NCBI GenBank assembly: GCA_905234125.1
Contig: CAJOGQ010000020.1
Location: 1 to 34,063, forward strand
Source: an uncultured Bacteroidaceae bacterium
GTDB taxonomy: Bacteria; Bacteroidota; Bacteroidia; Bacteroidales; Bacteroidaceae
Direction of reading: 5' to 3'
Length of the DNA stretch: 34,063 nucleotides
Part shown: positions 23,754 to 29,219 of the stretch, in pieces
Numbering within the stretch: position 1 is the first letter of the stretch
Layout: each line of letters opens with the position of its first letter
The notes under the pieces: model-generated
What the model saw: only the letters and a program-made list of their open reading frames with translations
What the model was told of the DNA's origin: nothing
The model's database searches: none
Made by a program: the position numbers and the translations under genes

Positions 23754-25673
23754 CTAATCCTTCAACGGCATGGTGAGAATGAAGCGGGCACCATCATGGT
23801 AAGTGTTGTCGTAGTAGAACGTACCACCCTGCACCTCGGCACTACGACGAACAAGGTTGAGTCCAATGCCCAATCCCTCGCTGTAGTAGTCGAGCTTGAA
23901 GAATGGGATGAAGATACGCTCCTCATCTGCTTCAGCGATACCAATACCCGTGTCTGTCACAGTGAAGGTGACGGTATTGTCATCATCCTGACGGCATGAC
24001 AATGTGATGCTTCCCTGCTTGGTGAACTGGTTGGCATTGTCAAGCATCTGCTTCAGCATCTTCGGGAAAGCTTGTTTATGGGCGATGATGGTCAAACTAT
24101 CAAGCACAGAAGTCTCGAAATTCAATTTCACCGTCTCTGGACACTTCAGCTTGATTTTGCTCATGATCTCACGGCAAAGGTCATTACAAGCAAACGGGGT
24201 GTCCTTGGTGATACTTGTCCTGTTCTCGAGGTAACCTGCCGTCAGCATCTTCTCAATGATTTCTTGGATGTTTTCCGAGTTCTCCTGCATCGCATCGAGA
24301 ATCAGTTCCATCTCCTCTTCAGGAATGGATTGGTGGTCATCGCGAATCACCTGCGAGAAGCCGATGATGATGTTCAGAGGAGTACGCACCTGATGGGTGA
24401 CGTCCTGCATGAAGGCAGTCTTCTTCTCCAATGCCACCTGCGCCTGCTCGTTGGCTATCGTCAGCTCGACATTACGCTTCTTGATTTCTTCGTTCATCAT
24501 CCGAATATCGCTGATGTAGCCAGAGATAAACTTCTGCATCTTGCAGAAACTGTTCTGCAACAGTCCCACAGCATCAATACGGTCACTCGGCTCCATGTGG
24601 TCGTCGAAGTTTCCAGCTGCGATGTGACGCGCCTGACGTGCCAGTTGATTGACGGGCACAAGGGCACTCTTGACGATCTGTCTGCACAAGATGAGCAAGA
24701 GTAACAGTCCGACGATGATGATACCCATCACAATGTAGAACAGACGGTTATAGCCTTTGAATATTTCACTTTCCGGATAGACGATGGCAATACTCCAACC
24801 CGTCTGGGGCAAGTGGCGATAGAACACATAACAGTATTCACCATCGTGCATCAGCGACATCATGCCAGACTGACCACTCACCATCGCATTTCCCAGTTTA
24901 ATCTGGTCTACATCTTTGTCAGGGTCTGTATCGGAGAAAATGGTTTTGTAAACCAATTTCGTTGAGTCAGGATGGATAAAGTAGTTGCCTTCCTTGCCCA
25001 GCATGAAGCAGTAGGAGCGTTCCGATGGACGTGTCTCATTCATGGTTCGAGACAACCACTTCAAGGAGAGGTCGGTGGAAACAACACCGATAAATTGCCC
25101 ATCATCATTGAGAATCGGCTTGCTGTAGGATGTAATCATCTCCTGCACATAGATATCGTCTAAATAGAAGTCGAAGAACGGGTCTATCCAACTCGACTGC
25201 TTTGTACGCTTGGGGATGGTGTACCAATCCATGTCGAAGTAGTTGTATTCCTTGCTTCCCTCCTGCTCCGTCTGGATGGTGTCTGACTCATGACCCGAAT
25301 AGATGGAATAGTATAGACCCTTATCTGGGAAGAAATTGGGCTCGAAAGCGATAGAGCAACCATTGAATCGAGGATTCAGTTCGACAATGCGTCGAGAATA
25401 TTTCACCACAGAGTCTGGATCCTGATGGGTACGCACCAACCACTCTGTATTGGTGGTGGCGATTTCTACCTCTGTGAGGATTTCCGTCATACGAAGGGTC
25501 GTATTATCGAGCACCTTGGTGGCACGTTGCAAGGCATCATCACGCACATAATTACGCGATCTGATATACATGAAGCCAAGCGAAGCCACAAACACCACGA
25601 CCGCAAAGAACAATATCCAGAGACTGAGCCTCAGGGACAGGGAATGTCGTATTTTCGTCAGAGGATTCTTCAT
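23754..25673 (-). CDS. Cache-HAMP sensor histidine kinase
   Basis: This membrane sensor kinase of 639 residues has a first span at about 17-37 and a periplasmic double-Cache-like ligand domain at about 40-305. A second span lies at about 311-330 and a HAMP region at about 331-385. A coiled coil leads to the dimerisation domain with the phospho-acceptor His427 in THQVRTPLN. The ATPase domain is complete: N box with Asn546 (LDNANQF), DTGIG at 574-578 and GLGIGL at 600-605. It has no receiver domain, and no response regulator lies in the window. Its ATG overlaps the TGA of the upstream paralogue by four bases (ATGA). The ligand is unknown. Confidence 0.95.
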   Translation of the reverse strand: MKNPLTKIRHSLSLRLSLWILFFAVVVFVASLGFMYIRSRNYVRDDALQRATKVLDNTTLRMTEILTEVEIATTNTEWLVRTHQDPDSVVKYSRRIVELNPRFNGCSIAFEPNFFPDKGLYYSIYSGHESDTIQTEQEGSKEYNYFDMDWYTIPKRTKQSSWIDPFFDFYLDDIYVQEMITSYSKPILNDDGQFIGVVSTDLSLKWLSRTMNETRPSERSYCFMLGKEGNYFIHPDSTKLVYKTIFSDTDPDKDVDQIKLGNAMVSGQSGMMSLMHDGEYCYVFYRHLPQTGWSIAIVYPESEIFKGYNRLFYIVMGIIIVGLLLLLILCRQIVKSALVPVNQLARQARHIAAGNFDDHMEPSDRIDAVGLLQNSFCKMQKFISGYISDIRMMNEEIKKRNVELTIANEQAQVALEKKTAFMQDVTHQVRTPLNIIIGFSQVIRDDHQSIPEEEMELILDAMQENSENIQEIIEKMLTAGYLENRTSITKDTPFACNDLCREIMSKIKLKCPETVKLNFETSVLDSLTIIAHKQAFPKMLKQMLDNANQFTKQGSITLSCRQDDDNTVTFTVTDTGIGIAEADEERIFIPFFKLDYYSEGLGIGLNLVRRSAEVQGGTFYYDNTYHDGARFILTMPLKD

Positions 25674-27205
25674 TGCTTTGCGTTTTCAGGGTTTGACATT
25701 GTAGTGTTGTCACCACCAGTTGATGCTTGGTGCTCAGGCCCATGATAGGCCATAGCCCTCTCTGAGGCATCCAATATCTCATTGAGCAAACGGGTGACGT
25801 TCTCCGTGTTTTCGAGCATGCGATCCACGTGTCCTGCCATCTCTTCGCTTGTAAATTCTTTGTAGCCCTTGCGGATGGCTTCATTCTCCGTCACAATGAT
25901 GCGGACAGGTTCCACCATCTGGTCAGTCATGTTGTTGATGACAGCCGACTTCGCACGGTCATCCTCCTTAGCCAATTTGCTGGCTTTCACCAGTTCGTTG
26001 TTGCGTTCGGTCAACGTGTCAGTCGTGTTGCGCAGTTCATTGATGTAGTCAGACAGCGACTTCTGCATCATCGAGAAGCTGTGTTGCAGATGACCCACCT
26101 CATCTCGACGTTTACTGTCAGGAATCTTCTCATCAAAGTTTCCGCCGGATATGTGGCGGGCACTTCTCGCCAGTCGTTTGAGCGGACGCAGGTTATGACG
26201 GATGATGAGTACGCAGAAAAACAAGAGAAGCACCAAGCCCACCACCGTGATGATCATCAGACTCGTCTGCAACTGCTTGAAGGGTTCCACGATATCGGAT
26301 TCCTCGCACACGATGGCAACGCTCCAATCAGTATGAATGAATGGACGGTAGAAAACGTAGTTGGTTTCACCATCGCGCTGGAAGGAGCGGTAACCTGTCT
26401 CTCCCGAAATCATGGCCTTGCCGATGGCAGTCATGGCTGTGTCAGGATGCTCCAACGTAGAGGTGAAGATGGTCTGATAGAACAATTTGGTAGAATCTGG
26501 ATGCACCAAGAACGTACCGCCTTTTCCCACCAGAATACTGTAGGAATGGGGGAATGGCTTGGAATCAGCAATCGTATGTGAGAACCAGTCGAGAGACAAA
26601 TCGACGGACAAGATGCCGACACTATTGCCCTGCTTATCGCGGATGGGTTGGCAGAATGAGGTGATGGCCTCATTCGTAAGGAGTCCACCTGTTTCAGTCT
26701 CTATGAATGGTTCCACCCAATAAGGCTTGTCGAGCAGTTTAGGAATAAGATACCAATCCAAATAATAATATTGGTATATGTCTGTGCCTTCTTGTTCCGT
26801 CTGTATCGAGTCAGGGCCATTGTAGGAGTAAGCCGAGAAATACTGTCCCCATTTCTCATAAAAGAAGGGGTCGAACGCAATGGAGCACCCGATGAGATGG
26901 GGATTGTTCTCCAGAATCTTGCGGCTGAACACAAACATGGAATCTGGCTCGTCAATATGCTGTTCCACCAACCACTTCATGTTATTGGCGGCCACCTCCA
27001 CTTCATGCAGCGTATTGCCCACTCTCAGCATCGTTCCTTCCAGCGTCTGCGAAGCCTTTTCGATAGCCTCTTCCTTCACAGCAAGACGTGAATAGTAGAA
27101 CATGATGCCAAGCGCGGCCATGAAGAGCACCACCACGCTGGCAAAGACCCAGAAACTGAGCCTTGCTGCTAATGATTGGCGGACGTATGTGACTACACTC
27201 ATCAT
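25670..27205 (-). CDS. Cache-HAMP pseudo-kinase, paralogue of the downstream sensor
   Basis: The 511-residue product has the same layout as the downstream kinase through residue 480: a span at about 17-37, a periplasmic Cache-like domain (with the shared GCSIAF, DSIQTEQEG, VDLSL, FLVHPDSTKL), a second span at about 314-334, HAMP, and a dimerisation-like helix pair. The phospho-acceptor site is altered: THQVRTPLN of the partner is TDQMVEPVR here, so Asp428 stands where His is needed. The ATPase domain is absent. The frame is intact and ends in a Gly/Asn-rich tail of about 25 residues, coupled by ATGA to the kinase. It should not phosphorylate itself. It may dimerise with or regulate the neighbour. 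The upstream gene is 14 bp away. Confidence 0.9.
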   Translation of the reverse strand: MMSVVTYVRQSLAARLSFWVFASVVVLFMAALGIMFYYSRLAVKEEAIEKASQTLEGTMLRVGNTLHEVEVAANNMKWLVEQHIDEPDSMFVFSRKILENNPHLIGCSIAFDPFFYEKWGQYFSAYSYNGPDSIQTEQEGTDIYQYYYLDWYLIPKLLDKPYWVEPFIETETGGLLTNEAITSFCQPIRDKQGNSVGILSVDLSLDWFSHTIADSKPFPHSYSILVGKGGTFLVHPDSTKLFYQTIFTSTLEHPDTAMTAIGKAMISGETGYRSFQRDGETNYVFYRPFIHTDWSVAIVCEESDIVEPFKQLQTSLMIITVVGLVLLLFFCVLIIRHNLRPLKRLARSARHISGGNFDEKIPDSKRRDEVGHLQHSFSMMQKSLSDYINELRNTTDTLTERNNELVKASKLAKEDDRAKSAVINNMTDQMVEPVRIIVTENEAIRKGYKEFTSEEMAGHVDRMLENTENVTRLLNEILDASERAMAYHGPEHQASTGGDNTTMSNPENAKQ

Positions 27206-27219
27206 GGTTTTTTCTCTAT

Positions 27220-28206
27220 TTATTTGGTTTGGCCCATCAATTCTTCATAACTCACCTCACGGTCGATGCGGTTCGTTTGCATCAGTATCTGACTCGCCTT
27301 CTTCACCATGTCTGGACGCAGACGATACTCACGTTTGCCCGATTCGTGGTTAACCTGCAGACGCAGAATCTCCTGCAACATCAAACGCTGTATCACACGG
27401 TTGGTCTGCACCTTGTTGGCCACCACATATTTCATCACAATGGACAGCGCCTCCTCCTGATGAGTCAACGTCCACTCCCAACCACGCTTGGTGGCTTCAG
27501 CAAAACGTTTCACCTGATCGCGATGCGTATCGTAATAAGCGCGCTTCACATACACACCATTCTCCTGAATGTTGTAGCCATGATCGGCAAAACGATAGAC
27601 GCTATTCTCTGGCATATCGAAACCTGCTTGTTTCAACAACAGATATTCGCTATAGCTGACTGCCGACACCATGTCCACACCACCAGACAGGAAGACATTG
27701 ATGTTACTCGAAAAATATACCCACTCATAATTGAGCTTCTTCTCCTTGTTCAGGATAGTCACCAGGTAGTTGGGCTCCGACAGATAAACAGCCAGTCGCT
27801 GTCCCTTTTGTGTCAGAGGATCCTTGCCCCAACGTGAAATGAGCAAGTAACTGCTGTTCATCGAAGTCTGTAGGATGTTGACCAATGGCGTACCATTGGA
27901 GACAATATCGATAGCCGACATCAATGCCAACACACCAGCGTCACTCTCATCGTTTTCAATGCGATGATAGACAGAACTGGCCAACGAAGGGTGCTGAATC
28001 TTCACGTCAAGCCCAGCATCTTTATAGAAACCCTTCTCCTTTGCCACATAATAGCCAGCAAATTCTGCCTGAGCTGACCAAACCATCGTGATCGAGAAAG
28101 GATCCAACGGCTTCTTAGCAGCAGACGTCTGACCCTTCACCATCATCAGGGAAGGGGAACAAACCAACAAGGCTATGGCCAAAAAGAAAGTCTTCATTTG
28201 TCGCAT
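27220..28206 (-). CDS. NMT1/THI5-like (SsuA-type) periplasmic substrate-binding protein
   Basis: The mature protein is a type II solute-binding protein. After a signal peptide (MKTFFLAIALLVCSPS...) comes the NMT1/THI5 signature FSITMVWSAQAEFAGYYVAKEKGFYKDAGLDVKI. The two-lobed body follows, with SDAGVLALMSAIDI, SGGVDMVSAVSYSEYLLLKQAGFD and a helical C-terminus. This family binds pyrimidines, sulfonates, nitrate or similar small molecules; the ligand here is unknown. I prefer the ATG at 28206, or MKTFF at 28197; an earlier ATG at 28287 lies upstream of the promoter. No ABC permease or ATPase gene is adjacent. It is first in a tight operon with two sensor proteins, so it probably delivers ligand to them rather than to a transporter. 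Confidence 0.88.
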   Translation of the reverse strand: MRQMKTFFLAIALLVCSPSLMMVKGQTSAAKKPLDPFSITMVWSAQAEFAGYYVAKEKGFYKDAGLDVKIQHPSLASSVYHRIENDESDAGVLALMSAIDIVSNGTPLVNILQTSMNSSYLLISRWGKDPLTQKGQRLAVYLSEPNYLVTILNKEKKLNYEWVYFSSNINVFLSGGVDMVSAVSYSEYLLLKQAGFDMPENSVYRFADHGYNIQENGVYVKRAYYDTHRDQVKRFAEATKRGWEWTLTHQEEALSIVMKYVVANKVQTNRVIQRLMLQEILRLQVNHESGKREYRLRPDMVKKASQILMQTNRIDREVSYEELMGQTK

Positions 28207-28247
28207 AATAAATACATCATAACACCCGATAAGAGCTTCGAGCGATG

Positions 28248-28255
28248 CAAAGTTA
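28248..28255 (-). promoter_or_regulatory. -7 element of the sensory operon promoter
   Basis: TAACTTTG on the minus strand matches TAnnTTTG, about 42 bases before the ATG at 28206. No TTTG is seen at the usual distance upstream. It lies in a divergent control region shared with the amidase gene. Confidence 0.6.
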
Positions 28256-28297
28256 TAACTTTTTTCGCCAAAAAAATAATATATCAAGAAAAATTCT

Positions 28298-28305
28298 TAA
28301 TTTTG
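28298..28305 (+). promoter_or_regulatory. -7 element of the amidase promoter
   Basis: TAATTTTG on the plus strand matches TAnnTTTG, 38 bases before the ATG at 28344. No clear TTTG precedes it. The two -7 elements of this divergent pair are only about 45 bp apart. Confidence 0.55.
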
Positions 28306-28343
28306 TGCCCAAATTCATCAAAAAAAACAAAACAAGCGTCAAA

Positions 28344-29219
28344 ATGAAAGTTGGAATTATACAACAATCGTGCAAGGAAGCCATTGCGACGAACATTTCA
28401 AACCTCGTCAGCAAGATACGCAAAGCTGCCATCGAAGGGGCTGAGCTGGTGGTGCTTCAGGAGCTCCACAATTCCCTCTACTTTTGTCAGGTCGAAGAAA
28501 CGAGGAACTTTGACCTCGCAGAGACCATCCCTGGGCCTTCCACCGACCTCTTCGGGAAGCTGGCCAAGGATCTCGGCATCGTCATCGTCACATCCCTCTT
28601 CGAGCGTCGTGCTCCAGGACTCTACCACAACACAGCCGTGGTGATTGAGAAAGACGGCACTATCGCTGGCAAATACCGCAAGATGCACATCCCTGACGAC
28701 CCCGCCTACTACGAGAAGTTCTACTTCACCCCAGGCGACCTCGGTTTCCACCCCATCCAGACCAGCGTCGGACTCCTCGGCGTGCAGGTGTGCTGGGATC
28801 AGTGGTATCCTGAAGGAGCACGCCTCATGGCTCTGCAAGGAGCCGAACTCCTCATCTACCCCACCGCCATCGGCTACGAATCGTCCGACACTCCCGAGGA
28901 GCAAGCCCGCCAACGCGTGGCATGGATGACCGTCCAACGGGGGCATGCCGTCGCCAACGGACTCCCTGTCATAGCTGTCAACCGCACAGGCCACGAGCCC
29001 GACCCTTCAGGACAGACCAATGGCATCCAGTTCTGGGGAAGCAGTTTTGTTGCAGGACCACAGGGCGAACTTCTCTATCAAGCTCCCATCGACGAGGAAG
29101 CAGTGGCTGTCGTCGACATCGACCTCCAGCGCAGCGAGAATGTCCGTCGCTGGTGGCCATTCCTCCGCGATCGCCGTATTGAAGACTTTGGCGACCTCAG
29201 CAAACGTTTCATTGACTGA
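28344..29219 (+). CDS. aguB: N-carbamoylputrescine amidase (nitrilase superfamily)
   Basis: It splits N-carbamoylputrescine into putrescine, ammonia and CO2 in the agmatine route to polyamines. The 291-residue product has the nitrilase triad: Glu40 in VVLQELHNS, Lys113 in KYRKMHIPDD and Cys150 in VQVCWDQWYPEGAR. The flanking YHNTAVVIEKDGTI and FYFTPGDLGF blocks are characteristic of the AguB branch. I use the ATG at 28344; an earlier ATG at 28245 would put the promoter inside the gene. The usual partner, agmatine deiminase (aguA), is not in the window. The gene is convergent with the MFS gene, 24 bp away, with no clear hairpin between. Confidence 0.93.
   Translation: MKVGIIQQSCKEAIATNISNLVSKIRKAAIEGAELVVLQELHNSLYFCQVEETRNFDLAETIPGPSTDLFGKLAKDLGIVIVTSLFERRAPGLYHNTAVVIEKDGTIAGKYRKMHIPDDPAYYEKFYFTPGDLGFHPIQTSVGLLGVQVCWDQWYPEGARLMALQGAELLIYPTAIGYESSDTPEEQARQRVAWMTVQRGHAVANGLPVIAVNRTGHEPDPSGQTNGIQFWGSSFVAGPQGELLYQAPIDEEAVAVVDIDLQRSENVRRWWPFLRDRRIEDFGDLSKRFID

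Follow-up and report, generated by a model that had tools for sequence, protein, structure and literature searches.

Binding proteins are usually annotated as parts of transporters, and the locus described here raises the question of what such a protein does when its gene is followed by two matching sensor genes. The locus lies on the minus strand of a 34,063-nucleotide stretch from an uncultured Bacteroidaceae bacterium (assembly GCA_905234125.1, contig CAJOGQ010000020.1, positions 1 to 34,063), and this whole stretch is referred to as the window. It encodes, in this order, an NMT1/THI5-like periplasmic binding protein (BP, 27220..28206), a pseudo-kinase (PK, 25670..27205) which lacks the phospho-acceptor histidine and the ATPase domain, and a complete histidine kinase (HK, 23754..25673). 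Open reading frames and Pfam confirmed the three genes, their limits and families as given in the initial annotation, and likewise the 14-bp gap between BP and PK (27206..27219) and the 4-bp ATGA overlap of the PK stop with the HK start (25670..25673). The best supported conclusion is that BP is a receptor subunit and not a transporter subunit. For the operon as a whole, roughly an even chance is given to the reading that it is a transport-independent three-component receptor, in which loaded BP would act on the dCache domains, PK and HK would form a mixed dimer and phosphorylation of HK would be passed to a distant regulator.

BP was assigned by its Pfam NMT1 match (E 7.8e-27). Its start is uncertain, because the reading frame stays open upstream as far as a TTG at 28287. 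A profile of 10 rows gave partial-length matches to 4nmy, a solute-binding protein (6.1e-9), to 3ix1, which binds formyl-aminomethyl-pyrimidine (2.2e-7), and to THI13/THI5 of yeast (1e-6 to 6e-5), and the SsuA family model matched BP weakly, far under its cut-off. PK is composed of a transmembrane segment (TM), a periplasmic dCache domain (residues 46-305, 26291..27070, minus strand, limits approximate), a second TM, a HAMP domain and a segment like the dimerisation and histidine phosphotransfer (DHp) domain of kinases. Pfam recovered PDC (1.4e-16), dCache_1 (2.2e-14) and HAMP (2.9e-12) in it; HisKA reached only 0.011, under the cut-off, and HATPase gave no match. The PK profile, also of 10 rows, matched solved sensor domains such as 3lic and 3lib, and over residues 412-492 it matched the DHp of the histidine kinases 4jas, 2c2a and 3dge (1.7e-5 to 5e-4); PK therefore terminates just past a DHp-like hairpin. 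When this pseudo-DHp (residues 417-481, 25763..25957, minus strand) was aligned to the DHp of HK, Asp428 (codon 25922-25924, minus strand) occupied the H-box histidine position. HK has PDC, dCache_1 (3.2e-19), HisKA (2.6e-12) and HATPase_c (2.1e-19) matches along with a HAMP match of 23.2 bits, slightly below the cut-off of 25, and its phospho-acceptor by alignment is His427 in THQVRTP (24393..24395, minus strand). The likeness of the two Cache domains reported earlier also holds, with 45% identity in dCache; HAMP and DHp are 52% and 31% identical.

To follow the trio, 45 genomes of the window's genus, 399 of the family and 393 of the order (BP profile search) were surveyed. The genomes carrying trios are metagenome-assembled genomes (MAGs) of 65-99% completeness, and the window's own is 84% complete. 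The trio set consists of 21 loci, namely the window, L080-L098 from its genus and L110 from a sister genus. The order BP-PK-HK was kept in all 21, and the arrangement is therefore not a matter of chance. Within the genus, BP matches were found in 23 of the 45 genomes; in 20 of them, the window's own genome among them, BP is at least 59% identical, and every one of these has the trio, while the other three (G434, G424, G427) possess the SpoIIE version only. Among the 21 are nine public MAG relatives titled Bacteroidaceae, Prevotellaceae or Bacteroidales; rumen or omasum is named in the titles of three and RUG names in six. When each start is placed at that of the longest open frame, the overlap of PK and HK is 4 bp in 15/21 trios. 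None of the 21 PKs has the H-box histidine (Asp in 18, Asn in 2, Gly in 1) and all 21 HKs have it, along with the box residues N546, D574 and G576. The G2 glycines are present in 20/21 HKs, and the remaining one is cut by a contig end. The absence of HATPase was established by Pfam for the window PK and by a home-made profile for the other PKs.

In the trios, the PK pseudo-DHp showed a mean identity of 65% and a median ratio of nonsynonymous to synonymous substitution (dN/dS) of 0.123, close to the true DHp of HK (72%, 0.128), while the PK tail gave 29% and 0.756. Each domain contributed 210 sequence pairs to these ratios, apart from the tail (136) and the BP signal peptide (6); after removal of saturated or too similar pairs, 100/210 were used for the pseudo-DHp and 106/136 for the tail, and dS was high at about 1.2-2.2. 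The PK pseudo-DHp is under purifying selection. With a kinase-like domain, the residues for activity gone and conservation in a signalling operon, PK is a pseudo-histidine kinase, its loss of activity being judged from the residues. The dCache domain is more conserved in PK than in HK (71% and 60% identity).

Across the order, BP is part of a wider pattern. BP matches were found in 51/393 genomes of the order and 76/399 of the family, and 141 BP loci including the window were collected, 126 with a stand-alone BP and 15 with the BP domain inside a long frame; the loci are not independent, as some genomes contribute several. A stand-alone BP is followed by a Cache protein in 124/126 loci (123/126 under a stricter rule). 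The Cache gene belongs to a Cache-SpoIIE protein in 89 of the 126, often with RsbW-like and STAS genes, to a PK and HK pair in 21, to a Cache-HK with a receiver-SpoIIE gene in 8 and to a Cache-HK in 3; it is cut short in the stretch in 3, and no Cache gene was found in 2 (L053, at a contig end, and L171). Outside the trio, 8 Cache proteins were typed by Pfam and the remainder with home-made profiles. BP and Cache thus form a conserved module whose outputs are exchanged; the trio is one output version, and the commonest output is a SpoIIE phosphatase. The expectation that the three families travel together stood for the close loci, all of which keep the pseudo-kinase, but not for the order, where BP mostly occurs with SpoIIE, nor for PK-HK pairs at large, as described below. 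No SpoIIE, RsbW or STAS gene was found in the window trio. As one BP family is tied to receptors across the order, transporter annotations may often mislead, and a nutrient-type binding protein with two matching sensors in rumen gut bacteria suggests sensing instead of transport.

Some other arrangements of the module were also observed. L060, L063, L067, L068, L070-L072 and L074 have BP, a Cache-HK and a receiver-SpoIIE gene, and in several of them RsbW-like and STAS genes come next; from their gene content, a kinase layer may precede partner switching in these loci. In the 15 long frames (535-883 aa), HisKA, HATPase or receiver matches were found in 13 (not in L078 and L175), and single proteins of L075-L077, L170, L174 and others of the order combine an NMT1-type domain with parts of a histidine kinase and a receiver. 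In L111 and L112 a single protein of about 1005 aa beside BP combines a PK-type Cache with HisKA and HATPase, and there is no separate HK. The long frames and these two proteins count in favor of the receptor reading.

In the proposed mechanism, periplasmic BP would bind a small molecule; the proteins that it weakly matches in sequence bind pyrimidine precursors and sulfonates. Loaded BP would dock on PK and HK through their dCache domains, for the most part on that of PK, and the two paralogues, sharing a TM-Cache-TM-HAMP-DHp frame, would form a mixed dimer via HAMP and DHp. PK, which lacks the H-box histidine, would add input and set the DHp conformation, presumably thereby regulating HK. 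HK would bind ATP and phosphorylate its own His427, and the phosphate would pass to a response regulator probably encoded elsewhere; phosphotransfer in the trio would be carried out by HK alone. We infer as most likely that loaded BP engages the Cache layer mainly through PK and that HAMP and DHp bring PK and HK together. Over residues 1-400, PK is more conserved than HK in the trios (67.5% vs 61.7%) and the relation is reversed in pairs without BP (47.3% vs 56.8%), the two sets differing in depth; this extra conservation fits PK as the main BP contact. Mirror-tree partial correlations were 0.607 for BP-PK vs 0.141 for BP-HK in a first version and 0.628 vs 0.391 with domains only, which is not decisive for docking. 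PK and HK distances correlate with r 0.869 over 55 pairs.

These 55 pairs are the 21 trios and 34 PK-HK tandems without BP. At least 34 such tandems were found by a PK search, mainly in the window's genus, and the BP profile matched in none of the 34 stretches, of which that of L180 spans just 1.2 kb upstream. At least two of them, L180 (C34:1212-4603) and L181 (C9; 5274-8695), are in the window's own genome, and the HK of L181 has Met at the H-box position with its ATP-binding boxes intact. An overlap of 4 bp was found in 17 of 19 pairs examined. Beyond the genus, among the matches listed (121 family and 247 order genomes), there was one pair, L214, besides a fragmentary one, L215. PK-HK pairs make up a wider family that is not tied to BP. 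L214 (4684-9179), from another genus of the family, has three Cache proteins in a row, a 337-aa Cache-only protein, PK and HK.

The origin of the pair was followed in a Cache tree of 53 rows, using 7/21 trios and 10/34 pairs without BP. PKs of trios and pairs grouped together (support 94/92) with L111 and L112 inside, a nesting that is not firm (a PK clade without them has p 0.139), and HKs of trios and pairs formed another group (100/99). HK grouped with the SpoIIE Caches, with 96/95 in one tree and 99/97 in the 53-row tree. A recent tandem duplication within the trio is opposed by the trees, as the PK and HK clades each mix trios and BP-less pairs and HK sides with the SpoIIE Caches. In the approximately unbiased test, PK and HK as one clade gave p 0.262, or 0.0481 without long rows, and is not firmly excluded. 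L182 is a complete HK whose Cache is of PK type and which has the H-box histidine. It branches at the base of PK (92/80), and its position is compatible with PK having arisen from a complete kinase by loss of the kinase part.

The histidine states of the 55 pairs show a further pattern. At the H-box position PK has His in none, Asp in 49, Asn in 4, Gly in 1 and Glu in 1. HK has His in 35; the other 20 have Leu, Met, Ile or Arg, and all 20 keep the N-box Asn, the G1 Asp and Gly and the three G2 glycines. For comparison, HisKA domains without the histidine number 722/76,471 (0.9%) in one published paper (PMC12632262). A histidine at position -4, one helical turn upstream, is present in PK in 20/20 pairs with a His-less HK vs 4/35 with the canonical HK histidine, and in five pairs (L186, L187, L197, L199, L212) PK alone has it. 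These matched states suggest that the two DHp domains may cooperate, though the independent changes are few.

Several observations weigh against the three-component receptor. Among the 55 pairs, 34 have no BP in the stretch. In the comparison with BP distances, HK HAMP/DHp gave the highest r (0.881), ahead of PK Cache (0.840), PK HAMP/DHp (0.836) and HK Cache (0.767), so the distance correlation is not specific. The -4 histidine is also present in HK in 15 of the 20 His-less HKs, always followed by Asp or Glu; here the proteins might form homodimers in which the acceptor has shifted. On the HK tree the H-box histidine was lost in 2-3 changes, so that the 20 are not independent cases, and the independent-pairs test of this loss against the PK -4 histidine found 1-3 pairs and has no power. 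AlphaFold models from 10-row alignments were poor (mean predicted local distance difference test score, pLDDT, of 48.9 for PK and 48.3 for BP); in PK, scores rose to 70-78 in the helical hairpin 431-480 and to at most 75 in a few further helices. No receiver-domain gene was found on the window's contig, with 10 matches elsewhere in the genome, nor in the other trio stretches by a one-seed profile. Finally, permease and ATPase genes lie directly upstream of related BPs (39-40% identical to the window BP) in L142, L146, L147 and L150, and in L046 a PF00528 search found a permease two genes downstream of BP, slightly beyond the 4-kb rule given below.

A somewhat unlikely alternative is that PK and HK form separate homodimers, with PK as a decoy that would tune the sensitivity of HK by competing for loaded BP. 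PK owns the full TM-Cache-TM-HAMP-DHp frame for such a role and its Cache is the more conserved one in the trios. However, a decoy by itself leaves unexplained why the cytoplasmic DHp is conserved (dN/dS 0.123), as it does the matching of PK and HK histidine states and the pairs without BP. An unlikely extension of the mixed dimer is that PK and HK are an obligatory kinase with divided catalytic duties; the acceptor histidine of the trio would be in HK with PK as receptor subunit, and the paralogous branch would pass phosphate in trans to the PK -4 histidine.

It is quite unlikely that the Cache domains bind ligands of their own in the manner of chemoreceptors and that BP is an accessory scavenger and not the signal carrier. 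The 34/55 pairs without BP favor this view, as do polysaccharide-type or ester-cleaving enzyme genes near BP-less pairs, but 124/126 stand-alone BPs adjoin a Cache gene whatever the output. In a check of 10 neighbour genes from 8 BP-less loci, the pairs of five, L181, L183, L184, L193 and L194, adjoin GH95, GH115, alpha-L-arabinofuranosidase or esterase genes, hinting that BP-less pairs may control the use of plant polysaccharides.

Returning to BP as receptor subunit, very improbable is the view that it is an orphaned ABC importer subunit whose permease is encoded elsewhere, with the sensors as unrelated neighbours. The weak match to the SsuA model speaks for an importer, and so do the transporter genes beside related BPs, which had been named beforehand as evidence that would count against a sensory role; they were found in part, in 4/126 loci upstream and in L046. 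These counts include genes within 4 kb on the same strand found by phmmer; an ATPase was found in 9/126 and a permease in 4/126, all with ATPase. The permease queries were all of one type, so other permeases near BP could be missed. Against the importer, the absence of an ABC permease noted for the window extends to its genome, an 84% complete MAG with no BPD_transp_1 match at E<=0.001 (the ATPase was not searched genome-wide), and to 17/20 other trio genomes. Thus 18/21 gave no match, six of them (G429, G433, G422, G419, G402, G423) 97-99% complete. The three with matches (G403, G435, G401) have them always on contigs other than the trio's, and the match in G403 is about 7 kb from a second, SpoIIE-type BP of that genome. 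The PF00528 search that turned up the permease of L046 covered 66 of the genomes. The permeases of L142 and L146 are amino-acid types by family, and two of the five nearby permeases (L146, L046) have an SBP_bac_3 domain of their own and are probably independent of this BP. The gene content points to a self-sufficient transporter beside the BP module, perhaps for the same ligand. In L046 (3932-9343) and L146 (4629-10091), two distant genomes, the amino-acid-type permease with SBP_bac_3 lies beside a BP and Cache-SpoIIE module.

That PK is the decaying pseudogene of a duplicate, as its missing acceptor histidine and ATPase domain might suggest, is scarcely credible and was rejected by the DHp dN/dS of 0.123 at 65% identity, together with an open frame of 490-514 aa in 21/21 trios and the Asp in 49/55.

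The principle of a binding protein acting on a Cache receptor is already known. In Vibrio, the periplasmic binding protein LuxP acts via the two-lobed Cache/PDC domain of the histidine kinase LuxQ, and no transporter is known to take part. The trio, known from genes, resembles it in the conserved position of the binding protein gene beside a sensor gene (21/21 trios, 124/126 BPs) and in the periplasmic dCache/PDC domain. In contrast, LuxQ is a single hybrid kinase with no known conserved DHp-only paralogue, and LuxP belongs to a different binding-protein family. SiaA/RsbU-type phosphatases have a Cache-HAMP-SpoIIE organization with RsbW-STAS partner switching. For most of the related BP and Cache modules in the order the output is likewise SpoIIE, frequently accompanied by RsbW-like and STAS genes, and the NCBIfam SiaA model matches the window PK around HAMP, far under its cut-off; the window trio differs in ending in a kinase, whereas SpoIIE is found in 89/126 stand-alone BP loci. 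In NspS-MbaA, according to two reports (PMC9993111, PMC5646818), a binding protein feeds no transporter and signals via a membrane receptor, but the output there is c-di-GMP turnover and not a kinase pair. Pseudo-histidine kinases are described, in PMC12632262 citing Collins and Childers, as kinase-like proteins with key functions gone which are kept in signalling; relative to that account, the present family differs in standing in tandem with a complete paralogue and in having Asp for His in 49/55. Among the open-access papers listed, judged by title and the start of the abstract, no BP-PK-HK operon and no PK-HK family of this kind was found described, and neither was a DHp-only, Asp-bearing paralogue in tandem with a complete kinase. 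PK-HK tandems are natural material for learning in what way a histidine kinase is controlled by its kinase-dead paralogue, and whether a phospho-acceptor can shift to another position or a partner subunit.

The promoter motif TTTG-N17-22-TAnnTTTG (Bacteroidetes type) has three matches in the window and none before BP, and therefore no promoter is claimed. The divergent neighbour of the operon (28245-29219, plus strand) resembles N-carbamoylputrescine amidase (TIGR03381, E 2.2e-88, 296 bits, under the cut-off of 410).

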